Under the pieces are notes generated by a model that searched no databases, was not told the origin of the DNA, and worked only from the letters and a program-made list of their open reading frames with translations. From Planctomycetota bacterium (lineage in GTDB: Bacteria > Planctomycetota > Planctomycetia > Planctomycetales > Planctomycetaceae), in assembly GCA_003388505.1 (NCBI GenBank), contig QQVO01000065.1:1-64000 (forward strand): a stretch of 64,000 nt of DNA, given 5' to 3'. This document shows, piece after piece, positions 6,983 through 57,317 of this stretch; the first letter of the stretch is position 1, and every line of letters begins with the position of its first letter. The position numbers and the translations under genes are program-made.

Positions 6983-7157
6983 GGGGGGCTTTCTGGTCGG
7001 TGATGGCTGGGGACTGTTCTCCAACAGCCGTTGTCACGGACGTGCTGAATCATCCATGAGCTTCGGAAGTGCCGGCGATGATTTCAACCGATGCGGGCTG
7101 TGCGGTAACATCGCACTCGCAACCAACGATGTGGCAGCCAGGACGAGTGAACCTGCA

Positions 7158-18864: not shown

Positions 18865-19680
18865 TCACTCCTGCGCCCAGTCGAATTCGCCGCCGGTGAG
18901 TTGCACACGGCCGGGTTCCGCGGCGACGTCCGCGGGCTCGGTAGCGGCGGCGGATTGGACGTTCGACTCGGCGGCCGGCTGCCGGGCTGCGATGGCGGCC
19001 TGTTCCCGTTCGAACTCCTGCTTCATCTGGTGAAGTTGCGTCAGGCCGACGGCGGCGGGGCGGAGGTCGGGATCGTAGTCGAGGGCGCGGCTGTAGTGCT
19101 CCATGGCCAGGCTGCCGTTGCCGCGCTGCGAACAGATATACGCCAGGTTGGCGTGGGCTTCCGCCTCGCTGACGACCTGCTTGAAGAGTGAGAGGCACTC
19201 CTTATCGCGGCCGGCGTACCCGGCGACGAGAGCGAGGTTGGCAACGGTTCGCTCGTTTTCGGGCTGCAGGCCGTACGCTCTCTGGATGAGTTTCTCGGCG
19301 GTTTCGAGATCGCCGGCGAGGATATACGCGTAACCGAGATCGTTGAGGATCTCAGGGTCCTCCGGGGCAAGCAGATGGGCCTCTTCGAGCAGGAACAAGC
19401 CTTCCTCCTCGCTGCCCAACTGTGTCATGGCGACGCCGAGGCGATGCGTCGCCAGCACGTCGTCTTCATACGATTCGTAGAGGTCGCGATAGAGTTCGAC
19501 CGCCTCTCGGAGTTTGCCCTCTTTTTCGTAGACCTGGGCGAGCGTGGACTTGGTGTCGTACGCGCGTTGCCGATCGGGATTGAGTCGACCGGCGACCCGC
19601 TGCGTCGCTGCACAGCCGGAGCCGGCTGTGCAGAGAGCGAGCATGAGAACGGACAGCTTCCATCCTGGAAACCGCTTCAT
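18865..19680 (-). CDS. TPR lipoprotein, TadD-like
   Basis: A 271-residue protein. The N-terminus is basic then hydrophobic and ends in GSGC, a probable lipoprotein cleavage site at about residue 22-23, so outer-membrane or periplasmic. Four to five tetratricopeptide repeats cover residues about 40-215 (LAQVYEKEGKLREAVELYRDLY, LGVAMTQLGSEEEGLFLLEEAHLL, LGYAYILAGDLETAEKLIQRAYGL and so on). In Tad pilus loci the TPR lipoprotein TadD helps secretin assembly, and here it is the last gene after the secretin. ATG 19680 fits the signal. The frame extends upstream into the neighbouring gene but those residues lack support. Confidence 0.75.
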   Translation of the reverse strand: MKRFPGWKLSVLMLALCTAGSGCAATQRVAGRLNPDRQRAYDTKSTLAQVYEKEGKLREAVELYRDLYESYEDDVLATHRLGVAMTQLGSEEEGLFLLEEAHLLAPEDPEILNDLGYAYILAGDLETAEKLIQRAYGLQPENERTVANLALVAGYAGRDKECLSLFKQVVSEAEAHANLAYICSQRGNGSLAMEHYSRALDYDPDLRPAAVGLTQLHQMKQEFEREQAAIAARQPAAESNVQSAAATEPADVAAEPGRVQLTGGEFDWAQE

Positions 19681-19756
19681 GGAGAAATCCTTTTTCCAGT
19701 GCGCGGCTACGAAACGGGCAGTGGGCTGCGTCGGGCGGAACCGGCATCGGTTCGGA

Positions 19757-20353
19757 TTAGAAGAAGCCTCCGCCTCCGAAACCGCCGCCAAATCCGCCGC
19801 CGAATCCACCGCCGAATCCGCCGCCTCCGAAGCGGCTGAATCCAACGCCGTAAGCCCGCTCGCCCTCGAACGACTCGAATCCGGGCGTCAACGCCGGCGA
19901 GACGACGACTCGCTGCTCGGCATTCTCGACGCCCATCTCGTTGAGGGCCTGAACGATCAGTTGCCGGCGCTGCATATCAAGTTCTTCGTTGTTGTGGACC
20001 GGGAAGCCGTATTCGGTGTCAGCCCGGGCCGTCATGCTGCTCTGCTCGACGAGGACGGGAAACGGCACCATGTTGACGCGGGCCGCGATCTGTTTGACGT
20101 GATCCATTCCGGCATGATTGAGGTCGACGGTGTTGCCGTTCCACTCGTGTTCGTAGATCACGAAGTCGGAGGCTTCCGCGTTCGCTTCCTGTTGCTGCCA
20201 GACCCGATCGCTGATCGTCCCCAGCGGGGCCGGGTCGTAGGCCCCGGGGTTGTTCTCGACATTGCATTGTGTCTGCCTGCAGTGGCTGCAGCCCGCAGTC
20301 GCTGCTGCCAGGGCCGCGACTGAGATGATCGACTTGAGCTTCAGATTGGCCAT
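19757..20353 (-). CDS. Gly-rich outer-membrane lipoprotein of the pilus locus (CpaD-like position)
   Basis: A 198-residue lipoprotein with signal and lipid-modified Cys22 (ATAGC). The middle, residues about 80-155, has an OmpA/CpaD-like look (VKQIAARVN, PFPVLVEQSS, RRQLIVQALNEMGVENAEQRVVVSP). The final 25 residues are almost only Gly and Phe in GGGF repeats. It lies between the secretin and the TPR gene, where CpaD is found in Tad loci, so a secretin-associated role is inferred from position. Homology to CpaD itself is not certain. The low-complexity tail could be flexible, surface-exposed or self-associating. Confidence 0.6.
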   Translation of the reverse strand: MANLKLKSIISVAALAAATAGCSHCRQTQCNVENNPGAYDPAPLGTISDRVWQQQEANAEASDFVIYEHEWNGNTVDLNHAGMDHVKQIAARVNMVPFPVLVEQSSMTARADTEYGFPVHNNEELDMQRRQLIVQALNEMGVENAEQRVVVSPALTPGFESFEGERAYGVGFSRFGGGGFGGGFGGGFGGGFGGGGFF

Positions 20354-20457: not shown

Positions 20458-22038
20458 TCAGTTGCTGAATCCGTGCGTTCCCTGGATGTAATACTGCTGC
20501 GAGGAGTACCCGCCTCTGCCGCCGAACGGGACGCCGCCCCGCATCATCTTCTTGCGATAGGTCGGCCAGACGGTGCTGCGGTGGTACACACCGGGATCGC
20601 CTTCGATTTCGCCGTTCCAGTAGAACTGGTGGTCGTGTGGTTCGGTGACTTCCATGCCGGGCAGGATCATCGGAGCTTCCTCGGGCTCGAGCGGATGCAC
20701 GAGTTCGGGGGAGACGAGGATCAACAGTTCCGTCTCGTCGCGAGTAATCGACCGGTCGGCGAGGAGCACGTTCAGGCCCGGGATATCGCCCAGGTAAGGC
20801 ACCTGAGCACTGTCGCCCCGCTGCTGTTCCTGCAGCAACCCGGCGATCGCCAGCACCTGGCCTTCACGCAAATCCACCGTGGTCGTGACCGTTCGCGTGT
20901 CGAGTCCGAAAATTCCATTGACGGCGGCGTCGGCGTTCAGCGTGCTGAACGTCGGCGCGACATGCAGCCGGATGCGGTCTTTGTCCAGGACGGTCGGCGT
21001 AAAAGCCACTTGCGTGCCGAAGCCTTTGAAGAAGGTCGTTGCCGCTTCAGCGCCGCCGACCCCCACGACTGTGGGGACGGGGAATTCCCCGCCCGCGAGG
21101 AACGTGGCGGGATGACCGCTGAGGACGACGAGGTTGGGCTCGGCGAGGATCTTGGCGTTCCCGTTGGTCATGAGGAAATTGAGCACGAGTTCGAAGGCGC
21201 CGTCGGCGAAGGTGCCGGTCGCCATCAGGTTGCCGCCGCCGGCCAGCACCGAATCGAACATGAACTCCTTGATGTCGAAGTTGAAATCGGCGCCGAGTTC
21301 ACGCACGGCCGACCGCTTGAGTTCGGCGATGCGGACTTTGAGCATCACCTGCTTTTCGCCGGGAATTTCCAGCATGTTGATCACGGTCGCTTCCGGAAGA
21401 AGCGAGGCGTCGGGAAACGGTTCGGAGGCGGGGCCCTGCGCGGCCAGGTTGACCGGTCCGCCGACCCCGAAGTCGACGCTGCCGCCGTTCTGACGGAGAA
21501 CGGACATGATGTGCAGAGCCTCTTCTTCGTCGCGGGCCTGGCCGCGAACGATGAGCTTGTCGGCGATGGGAATCAACTGGATGCGGCTGTCGGGAAACAT
21601 CTCATTGATCATCGCTTCCAGTTCGCCGTACTCCAGACGGCGCTGACTATCGATGGCGTCGTCCTTGGTCACGGTCACCAGCAGGCTCAACAGACGGGCG
21701 TTCTGCTCTTCGCCCAGCCAGAGCGTGACGGTGGTGCTTCCGGTCTGCTTGCCGATGAGTTCGATCTCGCGTGAGCCGAACGCGACAAAATCGACGACGG
21801 CCGGATCGGCGACCGCCGCCCGAAAAATGTCGTCCTTCATGCGGAGGATTTTCGAGCGGCGCAGCGTGACGTCGACTTCGACCTCCGCCGCGACGACCTC
21901 CTCCACGAGGTCATTCACTTTTTCGCCGACCGTCTGGCGTCCGGGTTGTGCGAACGCTGGAGCACAAACGGCCAGCACGCCTACTCCCAACAGCCAGATT
22001 GTCGCGCGCCTTCTCGGTGACATCCTGTTCCGAACCAT
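20458..22038 (-). CDS. cpaC: Tad/type II-like secretin (CpaC/RcpA family)
   Basis: A 526-residue outer-membrane secretin precursor. A signal peptide ends near residue 30 (APAFAQ). The N-terminal pilus-secretin domain (VTLRRSKILRMKDDIFRAAVADPAVVDF) is followed by a BON-like region (LIVRGQARDEEEALHIM). The secretin core shows VMLKVRIAELKRSAVRELG, KILAEPNLVVLSGHPATFLAGGEFPVP and the closing YLGDIPGLNVLLADRSITRDETELLILVSPELV. The last about 75 residues (His/Tyr-rich, Gly-rich end) extend beyond the family core. AAGGTGAACG before ATG 22038 supports the start. It would form the outer-membrane pore for pilus export. Confidence 0.88.
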   Translation of the reverse strand: MVRNRMSPRRRATIWLLGVGVLAVCAPAFAQPGRQTVGEKVNDLVEEVVAAEVEVDVTLRRSKILRMKDDIFRAAVADPAVVDFVAFGSREIELIGKQTGSTTVTLWLGEEQNARLLSLLVTVTKDDAIDSQRRLEYGELEAMINEMFPDSRIQLIPIADKLIVRGQARDEEEALHIMSVLRQNGGSVDFGVGGPVNLAAQGPASEPFPDASLLPEATVINMLEIPGEKQVMLKVRIAELKRSAVRELGADFNFDIKEFMFDSVLAGGGNLMATGTFADGAFELVLNFLMTNGNAKILAEPNLVVLSGHPATFLAGGEFPVPTVVGVGGAEAATTFFKGFGTQVAFTPTVLDKDRIRLHVAPTFSTLNADAAVNGIFGLDTRTVTTTVDLREGQVLAIAGLLQEQQRGDSAQVPYLGDIPGLNVLLADRSITRDETELLILVSPELVHPLEPEEAPMILPGMEVTEPHDHQFYWNGEIEGDPGVYHRSTVWPTYRKKMMRGGVPFGGRGGYSSQQYYIQGTHGFSN

Positions 22039-22488: not shown

Positions 22489-22995
22489 CTATTGGCCCGC
22501 TGTCAGAGGTGAATTTTCGGCGTCCGTCGACTTCTTCAAGACGACGACGCGGCGCAGCCCGTCGGAGGGGCGTCCCTGCGAGGTAGTGAGGACCGGGGTC
22601 AATCGCAGTCGCTCCTTGCCCAACAGTTGAATTTCGAACTCGCGTCTGACGACGGAGTCGTTGTCGACGAGATCGAGAGTCAGATTGGCGATCGGTTCGG
22701 CGCCGGCGACAGGCCGCACTTCGCCGTCGAAGAAGTAGCGACCCACTTGAAGCCCAGTCGATCTGGAGTTGAAGATCACGGTCCCGTCGACTCGAAAGCG
22801 GATCGACATTGCCTCGTTGTACCAGCGACCGTGCAGCGATTCCTGAGGCGTGACGCTGCAGGAGGCCAATGCGGAAAGCGCCGCGACATTGAATGCCAGT
22901 CGCGCCAGACGTTGAGACCGGCCGGGGACTACGCAGCGGGGGCCTCGGGCGGCGCTCCGTGAGCGGGGCGTGTCGGGGATTCGAGATTCGGTCAC
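22489..22995 (-). CDS. Small lipoprotein of unknown function
   Basis: A frame of up to 168 residues from GTG 22995. A hydrophobic segment followed by the classic lipobox LASC at about residues 43-46 marks a lipoprotein. The long Arg-rich stretch before it suggests that the true start lies further in, which I cannot place. The mature part of about 120 residues has a lipocalin-like or META-like feel (HGRWYNEAMSIRFRVDGTVIFNS, then GRYFFDGEV). It lies between TadG-like and secretin genes on the same strand, so a pilus or envelope role is possible. No family was recognised. Confidence 0.55.
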   Translation of the reverse strand: MTESRIPDTPRSRSAARGPRCVVPGRSQRLARLAFNVAALSALASCSVTPQESLHGRWYNEAMSIRFRVDGTVIFNSRSTGLQVGRYFFDGEVRPVAGAEPIANLTLDLVDNDSVVRREFEIQLLGKERLRLTPVLTTSQGRPSDGLRRVVVLKKSTDAENSPLTAGQ

Positions 22996-23034: not shown

Positions 23035-24276
23035 TCACGGGCTGCAGACGAATTCGGTGGCACGGATCAATTCGGGTTCACGAGGGAGGGGGTTGTCGCA
23101 TCGATACCAGGCCGTCGCCTTCGCCGAGACGTCGTAAGGCCCCAGGCCGATGCCCAGGTATTGGGAGCAGATGCTCGGCACTTCAATGCAGGCGCGAACC
23201 TGGGCGGCGCATTCGAGCGTCCCGAACCGCTGCTGAAAGCGGGCGATGTCTCCAAACGTTCCACTGCCGTTGGGGACGGGCGGGCCGCCGCCGTCGATGA
23301 AGTCGAACGTCCCGGTCAACATGGTTCCGTCGGAGAGGGTCACTGTGACATCGACGGCCTGATCGAACTCGATGGCGTCGTCCAGTCCGGTGCCGGCCGG
23401 GCCGATGAGGTCGGGGTCGAGTCCAAAGATCGAGGAGGTTCCGGGGGGCAGTCCCGCGCCGGCATAGTCGATAGTGACCGTGCGGAAGGTGATGCCTGAG
23501 GGGGTCGGCGGGAAAAACGTGAGCACTCCCGCGCCGGGACTCGGGCCGGCCGGATCGGAGGCGGTGAACGTGGCGGGGGGGCCGGAAGAAATAAAGGGTC
23601 CGAATCCCGATCCCGCCCGCGTGTCCCAATAGCCCTGTGCGCCGGGGTCGCTGGAGGGGATGGACAGGGTGACCGTGTCGATGGTCAGCACCGTCGCGCC
23701 GATCAGCTCGACGAGATATTTCGTCCGCGAGCAGTCGGGATTCACACAATCGGTGTTATTGCGGACGTCGATCCGCACCACGAGCTTGTCGGGCGCGAGG
23801 TTGCCGTTGAACGTGAAGGGGGGAGGATCGTCGGAGGTGTAGTCGCCTTCGACGTTACGGATCGACCCGAGCAGGACGACGCCGTCGGGACAATCGTGTG
23901 TGCAGCGGATGTTGCCCGGATTTCCGCCGCTTCCGTTTTCGAAGGGGGCGTTGGGAAAATCGAGCGGAACGCCGAGCACGGTGTTGGCCTCGAACGCCTG
24001 CCTGGCGTCTTCCCGCGCGGCGGTTCTTCGAACAGACGTGTTGCTCCCCTCGCACCAGGTCTCAACGGCGGAGAGCGCCGCTGCGTCGAGTGCGTTCTGA
24101 AGTTCGATCCTCGCCAGCCAGAGCGTGGCGTAATCGGTGACGACCACGACGACCAGGCCGAGGACCGGCACGAGGACGATCAGGTAGAGCGTTGAGAAAC
24201 CGGCGCGGACGTCCCGCGTTCCGCGCGATTGGCGGCGTCGGATCGGCCTGCTCATGGTGTTTTCGTCCAAACTCAT
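23035..24276 (-). CDS. TadG-like pilus-assembly protein
   Basis: A 413-residue protein. A basic N-terminus and one helix (about residues 25-50, GFSTLYLIVLVPVLGLVVVVVTDYA) are followed by ARIELQNALDAAALSAVETW. That is the hallmark of the TadE/TadG-like Flp pilus-assembly N-terminal domain. The remainder is an extracytoplasmic Cys-containing domain rich in Gly, Pro and Thr, with no von Willebrand motif seen. ATG 24276 lies 34 nt after the upstream gene's stop, and 24255 is an alternative start. It would be a minor pseudopilin or envelope anchor of the Tad system. Confidence 0.7.
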   Translation of the reverse strand: MSLDENTMSRPIRRRQSRGTRDVRAGFSTLYLIVLVPVLGLVVVVVTDYATLWLARIELQNALDAAALSAVETWCEGSNTSVRRTAAREDARQAFEANTVLGVPLDFPNAPFENGSGGNPGNIRCTHDCPDGVVLLGSIRNVEGDYTSDDPPPFTFNGNLAPDKLVVRIDVRNNTDCVNPDCSRTKYLVELIGATVLTIDTVTLSIPSSDPGAQGYWDTRAGSGFGPFISSGPPATFTASDPAGPSPGAGVLTFFPPTPSGITFRTVTIDYAGAGLPPGTSSIFGLDPDLIGPAGTGLDDAIEFDQAVDVTVTLSDGTMLTGTFDFIDGGGPPVPNGSGTFGDIARFQQRFGTLECAAQVRACIEVPSICSQYLGIGLGPYDVSAKATAWYRCDNPLPREPELIRATEFVCSP

Positions 24277-24310
24277 GTCCTGGATTCTCACCGACCGCCT
24301 TGAAAGACCA

Positions 24311-25339
24311 CTACGGATCACTGTCTGCGGTGCGGATCTCGAACGGCAAGGTGCAACTTCTTGTCACGTCGCAGCCGTCGGTGACGCTCAACGTCACGGT
24401 GTAATTCCGCACGTTGTCGGGTTGGGTGGTCATCGGGTTGTTGTCGGGGTCGGGCGGAATCGTGAAGGTCCCGGTGAACGTCGTGCCGCTGCCGCCGGAA
24501 GGAACGACGCCGCCGGTCGTCGACCAGGCGAACGTCAGTTGGGAATTCGGATCCTCCAGGTCGAATGTTTCGAACCCGGCGGCCTCGGCATCGAAGTTGA
24601 CCGTGATTCCGCCGCCGGCGGGGCTTGTCCCGCGAATGACGACCGCCGGGACTTCCGGTGGACAATCGGTGGGAAGCGTCCTTCCCGTAAAGGCGAAATC
24701 TCCCGGCAGCGTTCCACCGGCGAGAGTGGCTCGGAAGCGGGGCACTGGAGCGGAGTTTTCCGTTTCGATCCGGAAGACGGTCGAATGCTCGAACGTGCAG
24801 CCTGTCACGTCAAAGCCGAACGTGGAGAGACAGTTCGGAACGTTGCCGGTCAACGGCACGCAGACCGTCACCTTGACCCACGCCTGGTCCAGAGTCGTGT
24901 TCGGCGCGGCGGGTGGTTCCCCCGGAGGGAGCGGCGTGCCGGACGCCCCACAGTTGCAGGGCGCGTCGGTGTCGACCTGGAGCGGGTTGCGAACACAGGC
25001 GTTGTGCTCCAGACGGACTTCACACGATTCGGTGAGGCCAGCCGTCTCGAGGTAGTCGTCAATGCGGTCTTTAAGATTGTCAGGAGTCGTCGAAAGGTTG
25101 ATGTTCCCCAGATTTCGCGTCGCGAAGCGGCTGCGCGTGATCTCGGACGCGAGTTTGGCCCCGAACCGGCTGGAATAGGCGACCTGCTTGTCGACCTGGT
25201 AGATGATCGCGAATTCCACGACGGCGAGCACGAAAATGACCAGAAACGGGACAGCGAACATCATCTCCAGCGTCACCACACCGCGACGACGAGAGTTCGA
25301 GCCCGGCTGAGCGGTGGAAGTCTGGAGTTGTACCGGCAT
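24311..25339 (-). CDS. TadE-like pseudopilin with C-terminal PKD-like domain
   Basis: A 342-residue protein. Residues about 20-50 form a TadE signature (RRRGVVTLEMMFAVPFLVIFVLAVVEFAIIYQ), a prepilin-type helix with the +5-like Glu. Residues about 50-205 are a Cys-rich extracytoplasmic region. The C-terminal region has a PKD/Ig-like pattern (VNFDAEAAGFETF, LTFAWSTTGG, then NYTVTLSVTDGCDVTRSC). TadE proteins are usually 150-220 residues, so this is an extended fusion. It is the first gene of the minus-strand half of the pilus locus. The frame runs to a TTG at 25405, and ATG 25339 is preferred. Confidence 0.7.
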   Translation of the reverse strand: MPVQLQTSTAQPGSNSRRRGVVTLEMMFAVPFLVIFVLAVVEFAIIYQVDKQVAYSSRFGAKLASEITRSRFATRNLGNINLSTTPDNLKDRIDDYLETAGLTESCEVRLEHNACVRNPLQVDTDAPCNCGASGTPLPPGEPPAAPNTTLDQAWVKVTVCVPLTGNVPNCLSTFGFDVTGCTFEHSTVFRIETENSAPVPRFRATLAGGTLPGDFAFTGRTLPTDCPPEVPAVVIRGTSPAGGGITVNFDAEAAGFETFDLEDPNSQLTFAWSTTGGVVPSGGSGTTFTGTFTIPPDPDNNPMTTQPDNVRNYTVTLSVTDGCDVTRSCTLPFEIRTADSDP

Positions 25340-25450
25340 GGAGAATTCGTTGGCGGTCGGGACTGGTCTGTTGCTCTGTTGCCCGGTCGAGCGCTCGGCA
25401 GACAATTTGCTGTGCGTGGGTCAGCAGCAACTGTGCCGAATGCCGTCAAA

Positions 25451-25583: not shown

Positions 25584-27305
25584 ATGACCCAACAACGCAT
25601 GTCCGCCCAACCCGCAGTCCGCCATTCCGATCACGCACCGGCTGACATCGTGCCGCTGCCCACCAGCGAGCGCCGCTGGTTCCTGTGGGCGGTGTGGTTG
25701 TCCTGCGTCGTCTTCCTGGGGACGTCCGCGATCGCCGATCCTGATTTGTGGGGGCACACCCTGTACGGATTGAGGGCGATCGAGCTGGGTGTGCTCGTCG
25801 AACGCGATGATCCCTTCAGCTATACGGCGTCCGGCGCGCGGTGGATCAACCATGAATGGCTGACCGAGTCCATCTACGGATTGCTCTGGACCCGGGCGGG
25901 AAATGTTGGATTGACCCTCTGGCGCAACCTCCAGGTCTGTGCGCTCTTCGCGATTGCGGCGGTTGCGGCCAAGCGGGCGAGGGCGGGCGTTGCGGCGCTC
26001 ACGCTGCTCTGGATTCTGACCGCGGAAGCCCTGGGAAACTACTTCATCTTCGTCCGGCCGCAGATTGCGACCTTTGTGTTCTTCGCCTTGTTTCTGCTCA
26101 TTCTGCGGCATTGGTGGGACAATCCGCGGTCTCGCAGCGTTTGGGCGCTGGCTCCGCTGATGGCGGTCTGGGTCAATCTGCACGGAGGGTTTCTGGCCGG
26201 CTGCGGAATGGTCGGGCTCTATTGCGGCGCTGCCGTGGTCCGGCAGTTCTTGGCCAAACGGGGTGACGCCCGCATCGCGCTTTGCGTTCTGGGACTTGTG
26301 GCGGGGGCCACTCTGGTCAATCCCTACGGTCTCGAACTCCACCGGATGCTGTGGGAGCACCTGGGAACGGAGCAACTTGTGCGAGAATGGCAGCCCTTGT
26401 GGGCGATCCGGCAGAGTCCGGTGTATTACGCTCCCTTTGTGCTGATTCTCGTCTCACTGGCGGGATGGCGGAACTGGAAGGCGATCGATGCACTCGTGAT
26501 CGGAGTCACGATGTGGCAGGCGTGCTTTCACGTCCGGCACATCGCGCTGCTGTCGGTCGCGATTCTCATACTGCTGCCGGGGCCGATCACTCTCGGTCTG
26601 CGGCGGGTCTTTCCGCAACTGCATCAACGCTGGAGTGCTCCGGAGAGGGCGCGGCTGCGCGGCGGTCTGGTCGCGGCGGCCGTAATGCTCCCACTGGTGT
26701 TGCAGGGGCAGACCGTCCTTCGCTTCTGGAGGGAAGGGGTGGCGCCGTGGGAAATCGCCGTCGAGGGGAAAAGCGAGATTCCCGGAATGCCGCTGCGGGC
26801 GGTGTCCGTCATGCGCGAGTCGGGGCTGTCCGGCAACCTGCTGACCGACTACGGGTGGGGGCAGTTCATGTTGTGGCATCTGTACCCCGAAACGCGCGTC
26901 GCCTTCGACGGTCGCTACCGGACGGTGTATCCGGCGAATCTGGAAGCCGAGTTTCTCGAGTTTCAGACCGCCACGGTCGACGCCGATCCCCGGACGCCGA
27001 TCGTCGACTCCTATCCCACGGACCTGGCGATCCTGCCGACTTCGAGCAAATCGGCCGCTTACCTCTCCGCACGCGACGACTGGCAGTCGCTGTACCGCGA
27101 CGATCAGGCGGAGCTGCTTGCCCGAACGGCGTACCTGAAACGCATTGGCTGGGAACCGCCGGCGCAACCGACGGCAGTCGCCTCCGGCCGAATTCCTCAG
27201 TGGTCGGTCTTCCCAGGCGTGACGGCGAATGGCACGCCGATTGCAAAACGGGCAGCGAAGCCAGTGAATGACGCCACCCTGACGAACCGGCTGGCGGAGA
27301 AATAG
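25584..27305 (+). CDS. Polytopic membrane protein, GT-C-like
   Basis: A 573-residue protein with about 10-11 hydrophobic helices over residues 30-400 and a soluble C-terminal part. The first loop holds ADPDLWGHTLYG with acidic and His residues and later DDPFSYTASGARWINHEWLTE, the kind of acidic motif seen in GT-C lipid-linked glycosyltransferases. A second signature is LTDYGWGQFMLWHLYPETRVAFDGRYRTVYP. Planctomycetes have many such proteins of unknown function. It heads the plus-strand half of the pilus locus, so modification of pilin or surface glycans is possible. Confidence 0.6.
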   Translation: MTQQRMSAQPAVRHSDHAPADIVPLPTSERRWFLWAVWLSCVVFLGTSAIADPDLWGHTLYGLRAIELGVLVERDDPFSYTASGARWINHEWLTESIYGLLWTRAGNVGLTLWRNLQVCALFAIAAVAAKRARAGVAALTLLWILTAEALGNYFIFVRPQIATFVFFALFLLILRHWWDNPRSRSVWALAPLMAVWVNLHGGFLAGCGMVGLYCGAAVVRQFLAKRGDARIALCVLGLVAGATLVNPYGLELHRMLWEHLGTEQLVREWQPLWAIRQSPVYYAPFVLILVSLAGWRNWKAIDALVIGVTMWQACFHVRHIALLSVAILILLPGPITLGLRRVFPQLHQRWSAPERARLRGGLVAAAVMLPLVLQGQTVLRFWREGVAPWEIAVEGKSEIPGMPLRAVSVMRESGLSGNLLTDYGWGQFMLWHLYPETRVAFDGRYRTVYPANLEAEFLEFQTATVDADPRTPIVDSYPTDLAILPTSSKSAAYLSARDDWQSLYRDDQAELLARTAYLKRIGWEPPAQPTAVASGRIPQWSVFPGVTANGTPIAKRAAKPVNDATLTNRLAEK

Positions 27306-27765: not shown

Positions 27766-28392
27766 ATGAGCGTACGATCGACTGCGGCGAGAGCGAAAGA
27801 TAACCGGCAGCGTCGGGGAGTCATCACGCTCGAACTGATTCTGGCAATGCCGTTGCTGTTCATTCTGACGCTCGCGGTGTTCGAATTCGCCATGCTTGCG
27901 CTCGTTCAGCAGGCGGCGACGACCGCGACGATCGAGGGGGCGCGCGAAGGAGCAAAGATATTTCCCGGTTTCCCCCCCTTTCCGTTCACTGATCCGGATG
28001 GGGAACCAAGTCCCGACCCGACGGATCTTGATGACTCAGCAGACTACATCGCCGACGTCGTCGACACCTATCTGGGCGTCCACTGTCTCGAAGTGGCGCC
28101 GGCGGGCGGCGCCGGGGACGACCCGAATCGAGCCAATGCACGGGTGGTCATCGAGCGTCGTGTGGGCGCCGGCCCCGTTGAAACCGCTTCGCGGGGAGAC
28201 GACTCGATCGACTGCAACGCGGCGGGGCCGCCGCTCAATCCGGATGAGATTCGGGTCACGGTGTGCTTTGTGCTGGTCGATGCGGCGGATCCGAGTGGAT
28301 GCGGCAACCCCGTCCCGGATTGGCTGGCTCCCTTCGGATTCTCATTTGACGGTTGTCGTTTCGAGTTGAGTTCCCGCGCCAACCTGGAGTAA
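27766..28392 (+). CDS. TadE-like minor pseudopilin
   Basis: A 208-residue protein with the TadE signature at residues about 16-48 (RRGVITLELILAMPLLFILTLAVFEFAMLALVQQAATTATIEGAREGAK). One transmembrane helix and a prepilin-like Glu are present. The extracytoplasmic domain has three to four Cys (HCLE, IDCNA, VCFV, GCGN, GCRF), likely disulfide-bonded. The length is normal for TadE, unlike the TadE-PKD fusion on the other strand. It shares the Cys-rich mature style of that protein. It likely assists Flp pilus biogenesis. Confidence 0.8.
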   Translation: MSVRSTAARAKDNRQRRGVITLELILAMPLLFILTLAVFEFAMLALVQQAATTATIEGAREGAKIFPGFPPFPFTDPDGEPSPDPTDLDDSADYIADVVDTYLGVHCLEVAPAGGAGDDPNRANARVVIERRVGAGPVETASRGDDSIDCNAAGPPLNPDEIRVTVCFVLVDAADPSGCGNPVPDWLAPFGFSFDGCRFELSSRANLE

Positions 28393-28636: not shown

Positions 28637-28822
28637 CGATTTCGATAACCTCCGGCCGCTGTTAGTGAGCTGCATTCGGGTGCCCGTTCTACAGATCATA
28701 CCGGTTAGGCGGGCGGGGAACAGTTTTTCGCGCACACTGCCTGCGGGGAGTCGATAAACTGAAGCGGCGCGGCTGGTGTCGGCGGCGTCTCGATGCGGCC
28801 CCGGTTCGCGAGTGAAAGCTCC

Positions 28823-30019
28823 ATGCAGCGTAGAATCATCAGAGTCGGCCTGTCAGGCGTCGTTGCGGCCGCGGGCGTGGTTTCGGCCGCAGCCCAGGAG
28901 GCGGGCGAGAGTTCGTTCGAAGCCGTGCGAGGAATCGAAACCGAAACGACCGGCCCGGATGGCGCGGTCGGTGATGGATCGCCCGTTGTCGGAAGGATTT
29001 CGCTCACCCAGGCTGACCTGAGGCGTCTGGCGGGCATCGAGCGAACAACGCAACGCCTGGATCGAAGCGCGCTCGCCGCGTTTCACCGCGGCTTAATGCC
29101 GCTGCCTGACTTGCTGGACCAGACGGACCTGGCTGACCGAACCGATCTGTGGATTCACCAGATCCGGCGAGACGGCGGAGAGCAGGCGGTTCTTGTGCGG
29201 CAGGTGCGACGCCTGCGCGACGTTGTCTCGCACCTGGAGTCCTTCAACCAGCCGAACTCGTCAGGCTGGCGGGCCGATCTCGCACTGGCGCGTTGGGCGC
29301 TGAGCGACGCCGAATTCCGGGCGGCGGCGGCCGGCGGAGACGAGGTCGCGGCAGCGCGGAGTGGGGGGCGACGCGCGGAGTTCGCCCGCGAAGTCTTCGA
29401 ATTCCGGACCGCTGACGCAGCGATTGGGCTTGCCTCGCCGGAGGCCGTCCTGCGCGCCGCCGCGATCGTGGTCGCCTCCCCGTCAGCCGATTCAAACGCG
29501 AACATGCGCGCTCAGCGGCAGTATTTCAACCTGGCCGACATGAACGTCGAACAGACGGAACGATGGGGTCTCCTCGGCGCGGGCGTCGGTCGGGTGGACC
29601 GCATCGAGCAGGCCCGCGTTCACCGGGACTTCGCTTTGCTGCGGGCCTCCCTCGACAACGGAGAGGCCTCGATTTCTGCAAGATTGCTCGCCCGCACGGA
29701 AGCCCAAGTGCAGTCTGCGTTTGCAGACGAATTGCGATTCTTCGCAACCGGCGCCGCTTCACTGTACGACGTGGCGGAGACCTGGCGGACCTGGAGTGAT
29801 ATGCACCTGTCGGTGGCCGAGGTCGCTGAACTCGCCGATCTCGCCTCCACAGGCGAACGCGAGGAAGCCCTCGACCGCCTGCGCCTTGCGGCTGATTCGA
29901 TCAGTGACTTGCGCGGACGCCATGAAGCTGACGTCTTGTTCGTCGATGTCCTGGAGACGGTCGACGAACTGTCTGCGATGCGGCAGCAGGTCACCCGCAG
30001 CGAGAACTATCTGCAGTGA
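28823..30019 (+). CDS. Exported helical protein of unknown function
   Basis: A 398-residue protein with a signal peptide (residues 1-24, ending AAAQ). The mature part is Ala, Arg, Asp and Glu-rich and predicted mostly helical, with repeated helical hairpins (LTQADLRRLAGIERTTQRLDRSALAAFHRGL, LRDVVSHLESFNQP, EVAELADLASTGEREEALDRLRLAADSISDL). No catalytic motif is visible. It may be a periplasmic or outer-membrane structural protein. It converges on 30096-30686. A small hairpin GAACGC/GCGTTC at 30036-30052 lies between them without a T-run. Confidence 0.65.
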   Translation: MQRRIIRVGLSGVVAAAGVVSAAAQEAGESSFEAVRGIETETTGPDGAVGDGSPVVGRISLTQADLRRLAGIERTTQRLDRSALAAFHRGLMPLPDLLDQTDLADRTDLWIHQIRRDGGEQAVLVRQVRRLRDVVSHLESFNQPNSSGWRADLALARWALSDAEFRAAAAGGDEVAAARSGGRRAEFAREVFEFRTADAAIGLASPEAVLRAAAIVVASPSADSNANMRAQRQYFNLADMNVEQTERWGLLGAGVGRVDRIEQARVHRDFALLRASLDNGEASISARLLARTEAQVQSAFADELRFFATGAASLYDVAETWRTWSDMHLSVAEVAELADLASTGEREEALDRLRLAADSISDLRGRHEADVLFVDVLETVDELSAMRQQVTRSENYLQ

Positions 30020-30095: not shown

Positions 30096-30686
30096 TTACG
30101 GCTGGAGCAGCAGATCTTCGAGCTTCGGCAGGCCCGAGCCGAGTTCGCGGACGGAACCGGGCGGGACGTCGAGGAGCGGGGCGGTGGCGCCGAATTCCTC
30201 ATAGATTGGGCCGAACATGGAAACCGAGTAGGGGTTTCGAGGATCTCCGCCCATGTTCACGATCTGCGACTGATGGGTGTAGACGTTCATGTAGTTGTAC
30301 GGTCGGAAGTAATAGTATCCGCCGTACTGCGGCCGGTAAGGGAAATGCGGGTACAGATCACCTGTGGTGTGCGCGCTTCTCCATGCGCTGCGATTCCGGC
30401 AGCGCTCGCAGCAGCTTGGTTTTTCACATCGACGGCAATACACCATGCCCGAGTAATGGCTGTGTGAACAGCGCCCGCATCCGACGGCCCGGTTGCAATC
30501 CATCGGTTGGTAGATGGTCTCGGTCGACGGGGAGTAATCTGTCGCCGGCGGAAGCTGAACGGGCTCCGAGAAATTCACCGGTTGGACGGCCGTCTCGACG
30601 ATCTCGAATTCGTTCGAATCGACGTCAGCCGCACTTGCGGTTGCCGACACGAGCCCGGCGGCCAGCAACATGGTGAAAATCTTCAT
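30096..30686 (-). CDS. Exported Cys-rich protein with zinc-ribbon-like knot
   Basis: A 196-residue protein. The signal peptide covers residues 1-19 (ATASAAD). Residues about 62-100 hold about nine Cys in CGRC, CRRC and CCERC pairs with several His, a pattern typical of zinc knuckles or dense disulfides. A Tyr/Pro-rich stretch follows (PYRPQYGGYYYFRPYNY), then a MGGDPRNPYSVSMF block seen in planctomycete exported proteins of unknown function. The start is ATG 30686. No enzyme motif is seen. A role in the cell envelope is inferred. Confidence 0.65.
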   Translation of the reverse strand: MKIFTMLLAAGLVSATASAADVDSNEFEIVETAVQPVNFSEPVQLPPATDYSPSTETIYQPMDCNRAVGCGRCSHSHYSGMVYCRRCEKPSCCERCRNRSAWRSAHTTGDLYPHFPYRPQYGGYYYFRPYNYMNVYTHQSQIVNMGGDPRNPYSVSMFGPIYEEFGATAPLLDVPPGSVRELGSGLPKLEDLLLQP

Positions 30687-31124: not shown

Positions 31125-32759
31125 ATGATTCTTACCGGCAGGATTTTTCACCCTGCGGCAGCCGTTTGTCTGCTCATGCTGGCATGCTGTTCGTCAGGTT
31201 GTCAGCAGGCGCCCGAGCAGGCGCAGGCTGAGTCGAGCACAGACACTGCCAGCGACCGCACCGCCGATGCCGGCGACGATGGAGCAGCCAGCGGTTCGTG
31301 GGAGATCGGTCCGATCTCCCCAGACGAGTTGCCGCTCCGGATTCCCGCGGCGGATCAGGATTCAGCGGCCGATGCCTCTCCGGACGACGTCGACGCGGAT
31401 TCGCGTGCTCCGGGTTTGATTGACACGCTTCGCGCCACGGTGGCCGATTCGCCGATTTTCGAAGAGAGCGGCGTTCAGGAGGAGTTGCTGGAGAACCTGA
31501 CGTTCGGGCAGGACGCGCTGACGCGAATCAAGCGGGAAAATCGCCATGCGATGCGGGAGGCCAATCGACAGCTGCGGGTCGGCGCGGCGGCGCGTTCGCC
31601 GAATATCGTGCTCATCACGATTGAGCGGATCGGGCTGGGGGATCTCAGTTGCTTCCGCGACGAATCCGAGGAGGCCACGCCCCATCTGGACGGACTGGCT
31701 GCGCGTGGGACGCGATTTCCGAACTTCTACGCCGGCAGCGCCGACCCTCAAGCGGCGCGGTGGTGCCTACTGACCGGGCTCAACACCGGCCACGCACCGG
31801 GCGATCGAGAACAATCAGGTCGGTACACGCTGCGGCAGGAACAGCAGACGATCGCAGATGTCCTGTGGACGGCGGGATACTCGACAGGCTTCGTCGGTGT
31901 GTGGAAGGAGCGTTCCCTGCCGATCGATCACGGCTTTGACGAGTGGGCCGGAATCGTCGAGAACGTGAACCCGGTGACCCCCTATCCCGAGCACATCTTC
32001 ATCGACGCTTCGCGGGCAAAACTCGCGGCGAACGCGGACGGCGGCAGGGAGCTGCTGGCGGCCGATTTTCTCGTGGAGGAGGGCATCTCGTTCATTGCGC
32101 GACGAGCGGCGGAACGGCGACAGTTCTTCCTGCACCTGGCGCTTTGTCCCGAGTTGACCGCCGCCTCTGAGGGGCAGGCCGACCCCCGGCTTGTCGTCGC
32201 GGAACTGGACTCGATGATCGGAAGACTCACCGACTGGATCGACAGCTCCCCCCTTGCGTCCCGGACGTGCATCGTCCTGGCGGGCGAATCGGCGCCTCCT
32301 TCGGATGAATTCGACCAATGGGATGCTTCTTCGCGGACGCGGGGGCTGAAGTGCTCTGCGGATGGCCTCTCCGAAGGCAATCTCCGCGTTCCGCTCGTGG
32401 TCGTCTGGCCGGGTCGAGCACCGGCCGGCGGGGAGAGCGACCACGTGTGCGGCGTGTGGGATCTGTTGCCGACGTTTTCCGAACTGGCCGTCGCTCAGCG
32501 TCGCCCCGAGCGCGTCGACGGCGTTTCATTCGCGGCATCTCTAGCGGGCCGCACGCAACGAGAGCACGCGCTGCTGTACTGGGAGACGCGACAAGGCGGA
32601 TTCGGGCAGGCTGTCCGGAAAGGGCGATGGAAGGGGATTCGCGCGCCCGGACACTCGTCGCTGGCGCTCTTCGATCTTCTCGAAGATCCGGCGGAGCAGA
32701 CCGACCTGTCGGAGACGCGGCCGGACGTCGTGGAGCAGTTGGTCGTCCGCCGAAACTAG
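31125..32759 (+). CDS. Sulfatase-fold lipoprotein with lost active site (pseudoenzyme)
   Basis: A 544-residue protein. The N-terminus is hydrophobic and ends in a Cys cluster (about residues 21-26), a probable lipoprotein signal. An acidic linker of about 130 residues leads to a sulfatase fold from about residue 157 (SPNIVLITIERIG). The fold is recognisable throughout (TPHLDGLAARGTRFPNFYAG, LLTGLNTG, HGFDEWAG, RVPLVVVWPG, DLLPTFSELA, LFDLLEDPAEQTDLSE). However, every catalytic element is replaced. The metal Asp-Asp is Glu167-Arg168, the CxPxR Cys is Pro208 with only Arg212 kept, GKWHLG reads GVWKER, and SDNG reads GESA. A binding or structural role is inferred. Confidence 0.8.
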   Translation: MILTGRIFHPAAAVCLLMLACCSSGCQQAPEQAQAESSTDTASDRTADAGDDGAASGSWEIGPISPDELPLRIPAADQDSAADASPDDVDADSRAPGLIDTLRATVADSPIFEESGVQEELLENLTFGQDALTRIKRENRHAMREANRQLRVGAAARSPNIVLITIERIGLGDLSCFRDESEEATPHLDGLAARGTRFPNFYAGSADPQAARWCLLTGLNTGHAPGDREQSGRYTLRQEQQTIADVLWTAGYSTGFVGVWKERSLPIDHGFDEWAGIVENVNPVTPYPEHIFIDASRAKLAANADGGRELLAADFLVEEGISFIARRAAERRQFFLHLALCPELTAASEGQADPRLVVAELDSMIGRLTDWIDSSPLASRTCIVLAGESAPPSDEFDQWDASSRTRGLKCSADGLSEGNLRVPLVVVWPGRAPAGGESDHVCGVWDLLPTFSELAVAQRRPERVDGVSFAASLAGRTQREHALLYWETRQGGFGQAVRKGRWKGIRAPGHSSLALFDLLEDPAEQTDLSETRPDVVEQLVVRRN

Positions 32760-32971: not shown

Positions 32972-33670
32972 ATGTTGCGGACCAATTGGCTTTCGGCGGT
33001 GATGGTATTGGCGTTGGCGGGCACCGGATTTGCCCAGAACACCGAGGAAATCACGGAGGAAACGAAGCCCGAGAAGCGTGCCCGGGCGACGAGCGTGGAC
33101 TTCACGGCAGAGCTGGGGTTGAATTTCGCTTCGCTCACCGGCCTGGGAGCGCGGATTGAGCAGGCGTATCAGGCGGCCGATCCGGTCGGACTGGCGAGTG
33201 CGGCGCGGGATCTGGCGGTCGCCGAGTCGGTTTCGGGGAAAGAGGCGTCGATCACTTCTGCGGAACTGACGGAACGGGCCGTGGCGCTGGCCAAAATGCG
33301 GTTCGACGAAGCGGAACTCAAGGCGGTGGCCATGCTGGTGGACGATGAAGAGACCGCCGACGAACTCAAGCAGGTCGCCGATGACGCGGCGGCGTTCGCT
33401 GAAGAGCTCGCCAAGGCGGCCGAGAACGACGAGGACGCCCGCGGCATCCTCGGAAGCCTCACGGTCTACAACTACTCGTTCGCCAACGTCGACGTCTACT
33501 ACAACGGCCGCTACCTCGGCTGGGTCGGCGCCAGGGCGAAGTTCACCTTCAGCGTGCACTCTCACGCCAATCACTTCAACCTCTATGCAGAAGACGCCTA
33601 CGGCAACTTCTGGAGGTGGAGCGACAACGGCGACTTCAGCTCCTACTGGTGGGATCTGTACGCTCCGTAA
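32972..33670 (+). CDS. Exported protein of unknown function
   Basis: A 232-residue protein with a clear signal peptide (MLRTNWLSAVMVLALAGTGFAQ). Residues about 45-155 are an Ala/Glu-rich helical region. The last 75 residues switch to aromatic beta-type sequence (LTVYNYSFANVDVYYNGRYLGWVGARAKFTFSV, then ending NFWRWSDNGDFSSYWWDLYAP), which looks like a small binding module. GAGAGGAG just before ATG 32972 is a strong ribosome site and a hairpin terminator follows, so it is probably an independently and well expressed gene. No family was recognised. Confidence 0.7.
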   Translation: MLRTNWLSAVMVLALAGTGFAQNTEEITEETKPEKRARATSVDFTAELGLNFASLTGLGARIEQAYQAADPVGLASAARDLAVAESVSGKEASITSAELTERAVALAKMRFDEAELKAVAMLVDDEETADELKQVADDAAAFAEELAKAAENDEDARGILGSLTVYNYSFANVDVYYNGRYLGWVGARAKFTFSVHSHANHFNLYAEDAYGNFWRWSDNGDFSSYWWDLYAP

Positions 33671-50806: not shown

Positions 50807-52276
50807 ATGCGCAGCGTCGTCATCTTCCTCTCCTTGATCAGCTTGAGCCTCCATGCCGTCTCCGCAACCGCAGCCGACGACCGTCCCAACGTCCTGATGA
50901 TCGCCATCGACGATCTGAACGACTGGATCGGCTGCCTCCAAGGCCATCCCCAGGTGCAGACGCCCCACATGGACCGGCTGGCCGCCCGCGGCACACTCTT
51001 CACCAACGCCCATTGCCAGTCGCCGCTCTGTAATCCGTCGCGATCCAGCCTCCTGGTCGGGTTGCGGCCCTCGACGACCGGGATCTACACGCTCGCGCCC
51101 GGCATCCGGGATGTTGCCGCCCTCCGCGACTGCGTCACACTGCCGCAGCACTTCCGCCGGAACGGCTACTTCACCTTCACCTGCGGCAAGATCTTCCACG
51201 ACGGATCGATCAGACCCAAAGACCGGTCTGACGAGTTCGAAGTCTGGGGCCCCGCCCCCGGCATGCCGCGCCCCAAGGAGAAGTTCGTCCACCCGCCCGA
51301 CGATCATCCCCTGATGGACTGGGGCGTCTTCCCCGAAGACGACCGCGATCAGGCTGACTGGAAGATCGCCACCGCCGCCGCTGACCAGTTGGCGAACTTA
51401 CCGGACGACAAACCATTCTTCGTCTGCGCCGGATTCCGCCTGCCGCACGTCCCGCTCTTCGCCTCACAGAAGTGGTTCGACCTCTATCCGGAAGACTCGG
51501 TGCAGCTTCCGCCGTACCTCGCCACCGATCGCGACGACGTCCCCGATTTCTCCTGGTACCTCTACTGGAAACTGCCCGAGCCGCGCCTGTCATGGGTCCG
51601 CGAAGCCGATCAATGGGAGCCGATCGTCCGCGCCTACCTCGCGACGATCAGCTTCGTCGACAGCCAGGTCGGCCGCGTTCTTGATGCACTCAAAGAGACA
51701 GGCAGGGCGGACAACACAATCGTCGTCCTCTGGTCCGATCACGGCTGGCATCTGGGCGAAAAGGACATCACCGGCAAGAACACCCTCTGGGAACGCTCGA
51801 CGCGCGTCCCCTTGATCTTCGCCGGACCGGGCGTGTCGGAAGGGGGCGTCTGCACCCGGCCGGCCGAACTGCTCGACATCTATCCCACCCTCATCGATCT
51901 CTGTTCGCTGCCCGCACGAACCGGCCTCGAAGGCCACAGCCTCACCCCCCAACTGGCCGACGCCGACGCTCCCCGCGAATGGCCCGCCATCACCACCCAC
52001 AACCAGCACAATCACGCGATCCGCAGCGAGAATTTCCGCTACATCCGCCACGCCGACGGTTCGCAAGAACTCTACAACATGATCGACGACCCCAACGAGT
52101 GGACCAACCTCGCCTCCGACCCCGCCCATGCCGACGTCATCAACGAACACGTCCGCTGGCTCCCGCCTATCAGCGCCCCACCCGTCCCCGGCAGCAAGCA
52201 TCGCCTCCTGGTCAAGCAAGACGGCGTCTGGATGTGGGAAGGCGAGCCCATCATGGAAGAAGACCGGCGGGAGTAG
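50807..52276 (+). CDS. Exported sulfatase (iduronate-2-sulfatase-like)
   Basis: A 489-residue enzyme. Signal peptide residues 1-22 (ATAADD). Metal Asp35-Asp36 in MIAIDDLND. Cys75 in CNPSR is the formylglycine precursor. WSDHGWHLGEKDITGKNTLWE and STRVPLIFAGPGV are typical of the iduronate-2-sulfatase/choline-sulfatase side of the family, and the FRYIRHADGSQELYNMIDDPNEWTNLA end is the usual sulfatase C-terminus. It should desulfate a polysaccharide or glycosaminoglycan-like substrate. Isolated gene, no neighbour in operon. Confidence 0.9.
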   Translation: MRSVVIFLSLISLSLHAVSATAADDRPNVLMIAIDDLNDWIGCLQGHPQVQTPHMDRLAARGTLFTNAHCQSPLCNPSRSSLLVGLRPSTTGIYTLAPGIRDVAALRDCVTLPQHFRRNGYFTFTCGKIFHDGSIRPKDRSDEFEVWGPAPGMPRPKEKFVHPPDDHPLMDWGVFPEDDRDQADWKIATAAADQLANLPDDKPFFVCAGFRLPHVPLFASQKWFDLYPEDSVQLPPYLATDRDDVPDFSWYLYWKLPEPRLSWVREADQWEPIVRAYLATISFVDSQVGRVLDALKETGRADNTIVVLWSDHGWHLGEKDITGKNTLWERSTRVPLIFAGPGVSEGGVCTRPAELLDIYPTLIDLCSLPARTGLEGHSLTPQLADADAPREWPAITTHNQHNHAIRSENFRYIRHADGSQELYNMIDDPNEWTNLASDPAHADVINEHVRWLPPISAPPVPGSKHRLLVKQDGVWMWEGEPIMEEDRRE

Positions 52277-55772: not shown

Positions 55773-55895
55773 TAACAGACTTGCCGCTCTCGCGTCTTGC
55801 AACCAGCCCCCCGTTTACGAAAATACCCGCTTGCGGCTTCGCACCCCACCTCCCCACCGCCCCCCGCCGAACCTCAGAAACCCCCGAGTTCATTG

Positions 55896-57317
55896 ATGAC
55901 GCGCACCATCCACTACCACCTCACATACACCTTCCTCACCATCGCGCTCCCACTCCCATCACGCGCCGCAGAGGAATCCCGCCCCCCCAACTTCGTCGTC
56001 ATCTACGCCGACGACCTCGGCTACGGCGACCTCAGCTGCTTCGGGCATCCCACCATCCGCACGCCGCATCTCGATCGCATGGCGGCGGAGGGGATGCGGT
56101 TTACGCAGTTCTATTCGGCGGCCTGCGTCTGTACGCCCAGCCGTGCCGCGCTGATGACCGGAAGGCTGCCTATCCGCAACGGCATGTGCAGCGAGAAGCG
56201 ACGCGTCCTGTTCCCCGATTCCGGCGGCGGCATCCCGGCCGATGAAATCACGCTCGCCGAACTACTCAAAGAGCAGGGGTACACCACCGGATGCTTCGGC
56301 AAGTGGCATCTCGGCCATCTGCCGCAGTTCCTGCCGACCAAAAACGGATTCGATGCCTACTTCGGCATCCCCTATTCGAACGACATGGATCGACTCAACG
56401 ACGTCGCCCCAAAAGGCCGGGAGGCGTTCTGGAACCCGAAGGTCGAGTACTGGAACGTCCCCCTGATGCGCGACGAGGAGATCATCGAGCGCCCGGCCGA
56501 TCAGACGACGATCACCCGCCGCTACACCGAGGAGGCCGTGAAGTTCATTCAGGCCCACAAGGACCAGCCGTTCTTCGTCTACCTGCCCCATTCCATGGTC
56601 CACATTCCGCTGTTTCGCTCGCCCGAATTCGAGGGCGTCAGCCAGCGCGGCCTGTACGGCGACTGCGTCGAAGAGGTCGATTGGTCGGTGGGACAGGTTC
56701 TGGAGACGCTCCGTGAGGAAGCACTTGCCGAAAACACGCTGGTCTGGTTCAGCAGCGACAACGGGCCCTGGCTCATCTTCGACCTGCACGGCGGCTCGGC
56801 CGGCGTGCTCCGTGACGGAAAAGGCTGCACCTGGGAGGGCGGCATGCGCGAGCCGACCATCGCCTGGTGGCCCGAGACGATCCCCGCCGGCGAGGTCTCA
56901 CTCGAACTCGGCAGCACGATGGACGTCTTTTGCACCTGCGCCGCACTGGCCGGGGCAAAGATTCCCGACGACCGTGTGATCGACGGCGTCGACCTCACAC
57001 CGGTGCTGACAGGCGAGGGCCCATCCCCGCGCGAACACGTGCTCTACTACCGCGGCACGCAACTGATGGCGATCCGCTGGGGGCCGTGGAAAGCCCACTA
57101 CTACACGCAAGACGCCTACGGCGCCGGCGCCCGGCTGCGAATGGGACAGGATCCGCCCCTGTTGTTCCATCTCGGTCACGACCCGGCCGAGAAATACAAC
57201 GTCAACGCCGACCATCCCGACGTGCTGGAAACGATCGACGCCATCGCCGAAGCACACCGGAAAAATCTCGACGCGCCACCCTCGCAGCTCGAAATCCCCC
57301 TGCCCACAGACCCGTAG
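55896..57317 (+). CDS. Exported arylsulfatase-A-like sulfatase
   Basis: A 473-residue formylglycine sulfatase. Signal peptide to about residue 25. Metal Asp39-Asp40 in YADDLGYGDLSCFG, Cys79 in CTPSR for conversion to formylglycine, GKWHLGHLP with catalytic Lys and His, HSMVHIPL with a second His, and SSDNGP with the metal Asp-Asn. All key residues are intact, in contrast to the degenerate homologue at 31125-32759. The N-terminal 33 codons upstream of ATG 55896 are Pro-rich and unlikely to be translated. It is divergent from the propeller glycosidase-like gene. Confidence 0.92.
   Translation: MTRTIHYHLTYTFLTIALPLPSRAAEESRPPNFVVIYADDLGYGDLSCFGHPTIRTPHLDRMAAEGMRFTQFYSAACVCTPSRAALMTGRLPIRNGMCSEKRRVLFPDSGGGIPADEITLAELLKEQGYTTGCFGKWHLGHLPQFLPTKNGFDAYFGIPYSNDMDRLNDVAPKGREAFWNPKVEYWNVPLMRDEEIIERPADQTTITRRYTEEAVKFIQAHKDQPFFVYLPHSMVHIPLFRSPEFEGVSQRGLYGDCVEEVDWSVGQVLETLREEALAENTLVWFSSDNGPWLIFDLHGGSAGVLRDGKGCTWEGGMREPTIAWWPETIPAGEVSLELGSTMDVFCTCAALAGAKIPDDRVIDGVDLTPVLTGEGPSPREHVLYYRGTQLMAIRWGPWKAHYYTQDAYGAGARLRMGQDPPLLFHLGHDPAEKYNVNADHPDVLETIDAIAEAHRKNLDAPPSQLEIPLPTDP

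Follow-up and report, generated by a model that had tools for sequence, protein, structure and literature searches.

Why would a planctomycete keep, in an intact open frame, a protein with the fold of a sulfatase from which nearly all catalytic residues have disappeared? This question is raised by a gene at positions 31125-32759 of a stretch of planctomycete DNA of 64,000 nucleotides (positions 1 to 64,000 of contig QQVO01000065.1; hereafter the window), whose product we refer to as the pseudosulfatase. Sequence comparisons indicate that it represents a conserved family whose active site was lost in an old ancestor, and not a lone decaying gene. Within the sulfatases, the family appears to be a pseudoenzyme branch that has gained a further domain and whose genes occur in unexpected surroundings: that of the window is part of a Tad/Flp pilus locus, together with genes for TadE, TadG, a secretin and a TPR protein. 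We consider it somewhat probable (roughly 0.55) that the family serves planctomycetes of this class as a non-catalytic, envelope-anchored component of a Tad (type IVc) pilus system, a role that we infer from context. The gene and its product comprise the following features.

31125-32759, forward strand: pseudosulfatase gene (544 residues; open frame with an ATG start and no internal stop)
31125-31202, forward strand: putative export signal, residues 1-26 (hydrophobic; Cys21, Cys22 and Cys26, possible lipobox, from sequence)
31203-31406, forward strand: acidic linker predicted to be disordered, residues 27-94 (17 D/E versus 3 K/R; predicted local distance difference test, pLDDT, below 50 at 25-94)
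31413-31577, forward strand: N-terminal domain, residues 97-151, with the motif NRxA....NRQ (family hallmark; predicted helices)
31593-32744, forward strand: sulfatase fold, almost certainly catalytically dead, residues 157-540 (Pfam, PDB and Foldseek matches)
31623-31628, forward strand: Glu167-Arg168 replacing the metal Asp pair (alignment with 21 active sulfatases)
31746-31748, forward strand: Pro208 at the formylglycine Cys position (alignment; within SADPQAARW, 205-213)
31761-31763, forward strand: Trp213, just past the old CxPxR, family-specific (20 of 30 members)
31866-31868, forward strand: Trp248, usually Lys in active enzymes (30 of 30 members)
31896-31913, forward strand: GVWKER (258-263) replacing GKWHLG (alignment)
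32283-32294, forward strand: GESA (387-390) replacing SDNG (alignment)

The sulfatase fold, already proposed in the initial annotation of this locus, was recovered by profile, sequence and structure comparisons alike. The protein matches the Pfam family PF00884 (Sulfatase) with 84.2 bits against a cut-off of 25 and SGSH_C with 31.7 bits, and sulfatase models are its only profile matches above cut-off; the profile searches found no carbohydrate-binding domain and no above-cut-off match to a known Tad protein family (TadE, TadF, TadG, TadV, secretin, etc.). Its sequence matches in the PDB are likewise sulfatases (72 distinct sequences at E-values up to 0.01, the best at 1.3e-42). An AlphaFold2 model based on a 30-row alignment (pLDDT 83.1, predicted template modeling score 0.79) has 7anb as its top Foldseek match (E-value 4.3e-30), and target-normalized TM-scores reach 0.73, for 6psm.

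The region preceding this fold differs in part from what had been described. The export signal offers two lipobox candidates, LACC and SSGC, and the lipid anchor that the initial annotation deemed probable is plausible for the window protein, but it is no rule across the family: by eye, a lipobox-like cysteine closes the signal in roughly half of the members, and the remaining ones carry either an ordinary signal peptide or a membrane helix at the N-terminus. Read in the same way, these signals indicate that the family proteins are exported and membrane-attached. The acidic linker, originally put at about 130 residues, resolves into about 68 acidic, disordered residues and a subsequent helical domain at residues ~97-151, where AlphaFold2 predicts helices at 98-108, 110-115 and 118-146, with pLDDT values mostly above 80. 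A profile built from this N-terminal segment alone suffices to retrieve the pseudosulfatase family.

How far does this family extend? A protein search in 59 related genomes yielded eight further homologs with the same kind of losses; the N-terminal segment is common to all seven complete ones, while the eighth ends at a contig end. The active paralogs in these genomes are distinct and keep DD, CxPxR, GKW and SDNG. Among 170 genomes of the window's taxonomic family, the profile of the N-terminal segment (A2) had matches in 30, which belong to 14 of 58 genera and have one copy each; two of these 30 genomes carry remnants. In a phylum-wide sample of 294 genomes, matches were almost confined to the same taxonomic family, with one additional match in a sister family and one weak match, and a richer profile, run over 398 genomes of the class, brought in five further species of g49, the genus matched in the sister family, and a third family with a single member. 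A weak match to the N-terminal profile at locus L171 (genome G493) was discarded, as no family protein is encoded there. In total, we extracted 36 proteins, one per genome; the genomes span three families within a single planctomycete class, and one protein (L090) is cut by a contig end. Alignment, tree and locus counts refer to a 30-row set, to which the six later members (g49 and third family) were added separately.

The loss of the catalytic site runs through this entire set. In the window protein, the replacements named in the initial annotation and listed above are exact, and the alignment leaves it only one of nine catalytic and metal-binding residues, the arginine of CxPxR: the metal ligands DD and DN/DH have become ER and ES, the lysine of GKW is Val259, and the late lysine and histidine correspond to an alanine and a gap. 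No member of the 30-row set has a cysteine at the formylglycine position, and five have a serine; 0 to 6 of the nine residues are kept, as compared to essentially all in the 21 active controls. An S-x-A-x-R motif is present in four members (L044, L079, L082 and L083), in which the second metal aspartate, the GKW lysine, the histidine and the late lysine are nevertheless missing. The highest number, six (DD, R, K, D and N), is left in L078 (3699-5480, reverse strand), which has a glycine at the nucleophile position and likely represents an intermediate stage in the loss of activity. The six later-added members keep 0-2 of the nine residues, and a complete active site is found in none of the 36 proteins; from these alignments, loss of catalysis in the family is near certain. 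As for the three other sulfatases in the window, which had been described as keeping all motifs, this holds for those at 5564-7024 and 55797-57317, but the one at 50807-52276 has DD, CxPxR and SDHG without a match to GK[WF].

In a maximum-likelihood tree of the fold region, a single branch separates the 30 pseudosulfatases from 25 active sulfatases, with support values of 100/99 and in all 200 bootstrap trees; several members sit on long branches, the inner order is uncertain and the active sulfatases are a sample only. The family has also remained under constraint. Close pairs of pseudosulfatase genes have ratios of nonsynonymous to synonymous substitution rates (dN/dS) of 0.08-0.27. Within genus g49, the ratios are 0.08-0.13 for the pseudosulfatase gene and 0.05-0.11 for its N-terminal domain, next to 0.15-0.23 for TadE and 0.06-0.18 for TadG in the same operon; with some dS values near saturation, these ratios are rough estimates. 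Purifying selection thus persists after catalytic loss, similar to that on the neighboring Tad genes. The retained non-catalytic function suggested in the initial annotation is therefore well supported: the losses are shared by all 36 homologs, no ortholog has an intact site, and there is no relaxed selection at the family level, although one lineage (three contigs) has been reduced to an N-terminal remnant.

This constraint is unevenly distributed over the protein. Family-specific conserved residues include W248 and W274 as well as N139, A142 and R148 of the N-terminal domain (90-97% conserved), and the strongest family-specific conservation lies in that domain and in a few tryptophans. The former catalytic positions, by contrast, are extra variable, with a mean entropy within the family of 2.56 bits versus 1.70 bits at other positions conserved in active enzymes (permutation p 0.011), and the old pocket is therefore unlike one conserved ligand site. 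Furthermore, the 30-row alignment contains no new invariant set of acidic, histidine or nucleophilic residues that would replace the lost ones.

If not catalysis, what could this protein be kept for? The genes upstream of it in the window provide the main clue.

30096-30686, reverse strand: CysYYF, a Cys-rich secreted protein and divergent neighbor with a YYYFRPYN motif (18 of 30 family loci, 0 of 20 control loci)
28793-30019, forward strand: P408, a secreted helical protein (11 of 30 family loci, 0 of 20 controls; no Pfam match)
27766-28392, forward strand: TadE-like minor pilin (PF07811, 33.9 bits)
25584-27305, forward strand: membrane protein of 573 residues, recurrent in these loci (homologs in family loci; no Pfam match)
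24311-25405, reverse strand: TadE-like minor pilin with a long C-terminal part (PF07811, 24.7 bits)
23035-24321, reverse strand: TadG-like protein (PF13400, 43.3 bits)
22489-22995, reverse strand: small protein of 168 residues beside TadG, with lipoprotein-like homologs (11 of 30 family loci, 0 of 20 controls)
20458-22038, reverse strand: pilus-type secretin (PF00263, 127.4 bits; PF13629, 49.7 bits)
18865-19845, reverse strand: TPR protein next to the secretin, in a TadD-like position (TPR families)

This association recurs across relatives. Besides the families counted in the list, TadE is found at 11, the secretin at 8 and TadG at 7 of the 30 family loci. None of these six neighbor families occurs at 20 active-sulfatase loci, where three other neighbor families have one match each; the neighbor profiles were seeded from family loci, which somewhat favors those loci in the counts. 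Tad genes or the Tad-linked Cys-rich protein lie near the pseudosulfatase gene in about 10 of 16 assessable genera, and core Tad genes in about six genera besides the window locus. The strongest example comes from genus g49 of the second family, where the gene lies between TadE and TadG in all six species examined, with all three genes on one strand and either overlapping slightly or separated by 5-30 bp; TadE is confirmed by Pfam (31 bits), whereas TadG reaches 19.9 bits, below the Pfam cut-off of 22.3, but ~190-270 bits with the TadG profile of other loci. The order in g5, again on one strand, is TadE, TadV, P408, CysYYF and the pseudosulfatase gene; in g72, the gene is followed by the secretin and the TPR protein, and in g1, g26, g4 and g74 it is divergent from CysYYF. 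Strong CysYYF matches (at least 75 bits, a threshold chosen at a gap in the score list) were obtained in all 30 family-positive genomes versus 28 of 140 negatives (Fisher p 1.4e-17, ignoring phylogeny), and CysYYF usually adjoins a Tad secretin.

Several observations on these neighbors stand on their own. CysYYF is a separate family: its alignment shows an invariant HxxYxP...GxYYFRPYN motif, it has no Pfam match, and many genomes of the window's taxonomic family, whether or not they encode a pseudosulfatase, have it next to Tad secretins. P408 likewise recurs in Tad loci of these genomes, often adjoining CysYYF. Genome G111 has no pseudosulfatase, but encodes an apparently active sulfatase (L122:11949-13394, forward strand) near CysYYF and a Tad secretin, which is possibly a coincidence; although it scores 221 bits with the family profile, we did not accept it as a member, given its nine intact catalytic residues and missing N-terminal domain, and placed it in the tree as an active control. 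In genus g72, the near-identical contigs L092, L093 and L124 (genomes G131, G142 and G139) have only the first ~115 residues of a pseudosulfatase beside CysYYF; these are 80% identical to L081, and the rest of the gene is gone, apparently through one truncation event. Finally, a secreted protein of 232 residues with a Trp/Tyr-rich end and no Pfam match is encoded in the window directly 3' of the pseudosulfatase gene (32972-33670, forward strand).

From these data, the following scenario can be drawn. An S1-type sulfatase would have lost its active site and gained an N-terminal domain made of helices, which follows a membrane anchor. Tethered by anchor and linker, the pseudosulfatase fold may reside in the periplasm or at the outer membrane; there, its surface and the N-terminal helices could bind Tad partners, such as the minor pilins TadE and TadG or the secretin region, and the bound protein could serve as an assembly or tip-associated scaffold. 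For such a component, we infer both that it contacts Tad proteins physically and that it acts as a scaffold. Tad pili are adhesion pili (PMC10499894), and according to one proposal, minor pilins of the TadEFG type build complexes at the pilus tip, which prime pilus assembly and confer specificity (PMC12075869). More tentatively, a dead carbohydrate sulfatase might have been recruited as a structural component of the Tad pilus or as a recognition component associated with its tip; it would then work as a module for assembly or adhesion, comparable to PilY1 in type IVa pili and without a known precedent in other Tad systems.

A number of findings weigh against a pilus component. In g25, g27, g31, g33, g68 and the genus of the third family, the gene lies outside any detected Tad context, and some of these genera are early branches. 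All 16 genomes checked have Tad-type genes, whether or not they encode a pseudosulfatase, which makes the latter at most an accessory to one type of Tad locus; moreover, the co-occurrence counts ignore phylogeny. The six genera without this context, together with the gene order that varies between genera, would also suit a non-catalytic envelope protein unlinked to pili, for example in regulation or cell-wall upkeep, with the Tad neighborhood as a frequent insertion site or a result of hitchhiking. This we find unlikely, as the association recurs in varied arrangements in several genera and as a tight operon in a second family, for which the inheritance of one gene order is an insufficient explanation. 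The main rival is instead a surface lectin, whose dead sulfatase fold would bind sulfated glycans and aid attachment to polysaccharides, possibly along with the Tad pilus. The fold derives from enzymes that bind such glycans, the nearest solved relatives are sulfatases of mucin glycans and carrageenan, and the apparent export and membrane attachment as well as the adhesion role of Tad pili would fit. We nevertheless regard it as rather doubtful: the family-specific conservation peaks elsewhere, in the N-terminal domain and the few tryptophans, no carbohydrate-binding domain was found in the window protein, and the former catalytic positions vary, even if this would be compatible with varied ligands. 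As to carbohydrate binding in the old pocket, the same variability argues against a single conserved ligand; this function, like the scaffold for other sulfatases that we set aside in view of recurrent neighbors that are Tad-pilus genes and not sulfatases, had been offered as an example in the initial annotation and finds little support.

The remaining explanations are at odds with the conservation pattern. An altered enzyme, with a rebuilt active site for another reaction, could be imagined from the S-x-A-x-R motif of four members and the metal ligands mostly retained in L078, but without a new invariant residue set and with the old catalytic positions among the most variable, it is very improbable. 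Ongoing loss as a pseudogene would account for the disappearance of every catalytic motif and for the three remnants in g72; it is, however, hardly credible in view of intact frames in three families, dN/dS ratios equal to those of functional neighbors and new family-specific conserved residues.

A component of the Tad pilus system thus remains our preferred reading, and it bears on how such proteins are counted and named. The sulfatase repertoires of planctomycetes are known to be very large (PMC5066984), and any PF00884 protein is labeled a sulfatase by automated annotation. Judging from its residues, a whole conserved PF00884 family is very probably not an enzyme; consequently, sulfatase counts would be inflated and the real role missed. 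If the Tad link is functional, the family would be a lineage-specific, hitherto unrecognized component added to a widespread adhesion pilus, and an example of a glycan-processing fold reused in attachment.

Among known systems, the S1 formylglycine sulfatases active on mucin glycans (7ana/7anb, 7an1) and carrageenan (PsS1_19B, 6psm) share the whole fold with the window protein, including the WD, LYW and WK landmarks, at 22-27% identity in structural alignments. Unlike these members of the SulfAtlas class, it lacks the formylglycine cysteine, the metal pair, the catalytic lysine, the histidine and DN, and has an extra N-terminal helical domain. YejM/LapC/PbgA resembles the pseudosulfatase in having a sulfatase-like periplasmic domain held at the membrane, and it functions mainly as a regulator, not as a hydrolase of sulfate esters. 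Unlike the pseudosulfatase, however, YejM has several membrane helices, and the window protein scores 11.1 bits with the YejM/LapC model NF038282 of NCBIfam, far below the cut-off of 825. YejM has furthermore been reported as a metalloenzyme (PMC7576196). Closer to the present case in phylum are nine planctomycete or lentisphaeral sequences without the active-site arginine, termed possibly inactive in the SulfAtlas paper (PMC5066984); like the window protein, they are putative sulfatases without an active-site residue, but by description they lost only the arginine, whereas the window protein keeps the arginine and lost the rest. In the open-licence papers searched, we found no account of a pseudosulfatase family or of Tad loci that encode a sulfatase fold. 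Compared to the components of Tad/Flp (type IVc) loci, i.e. TadE, TadG, the secretin RcpA and TadV, the pseudosulfatase is neither a pilin nor any known Tad protein, yet its gene lies inside such loci and, in g49, directly between TadE and TadG.
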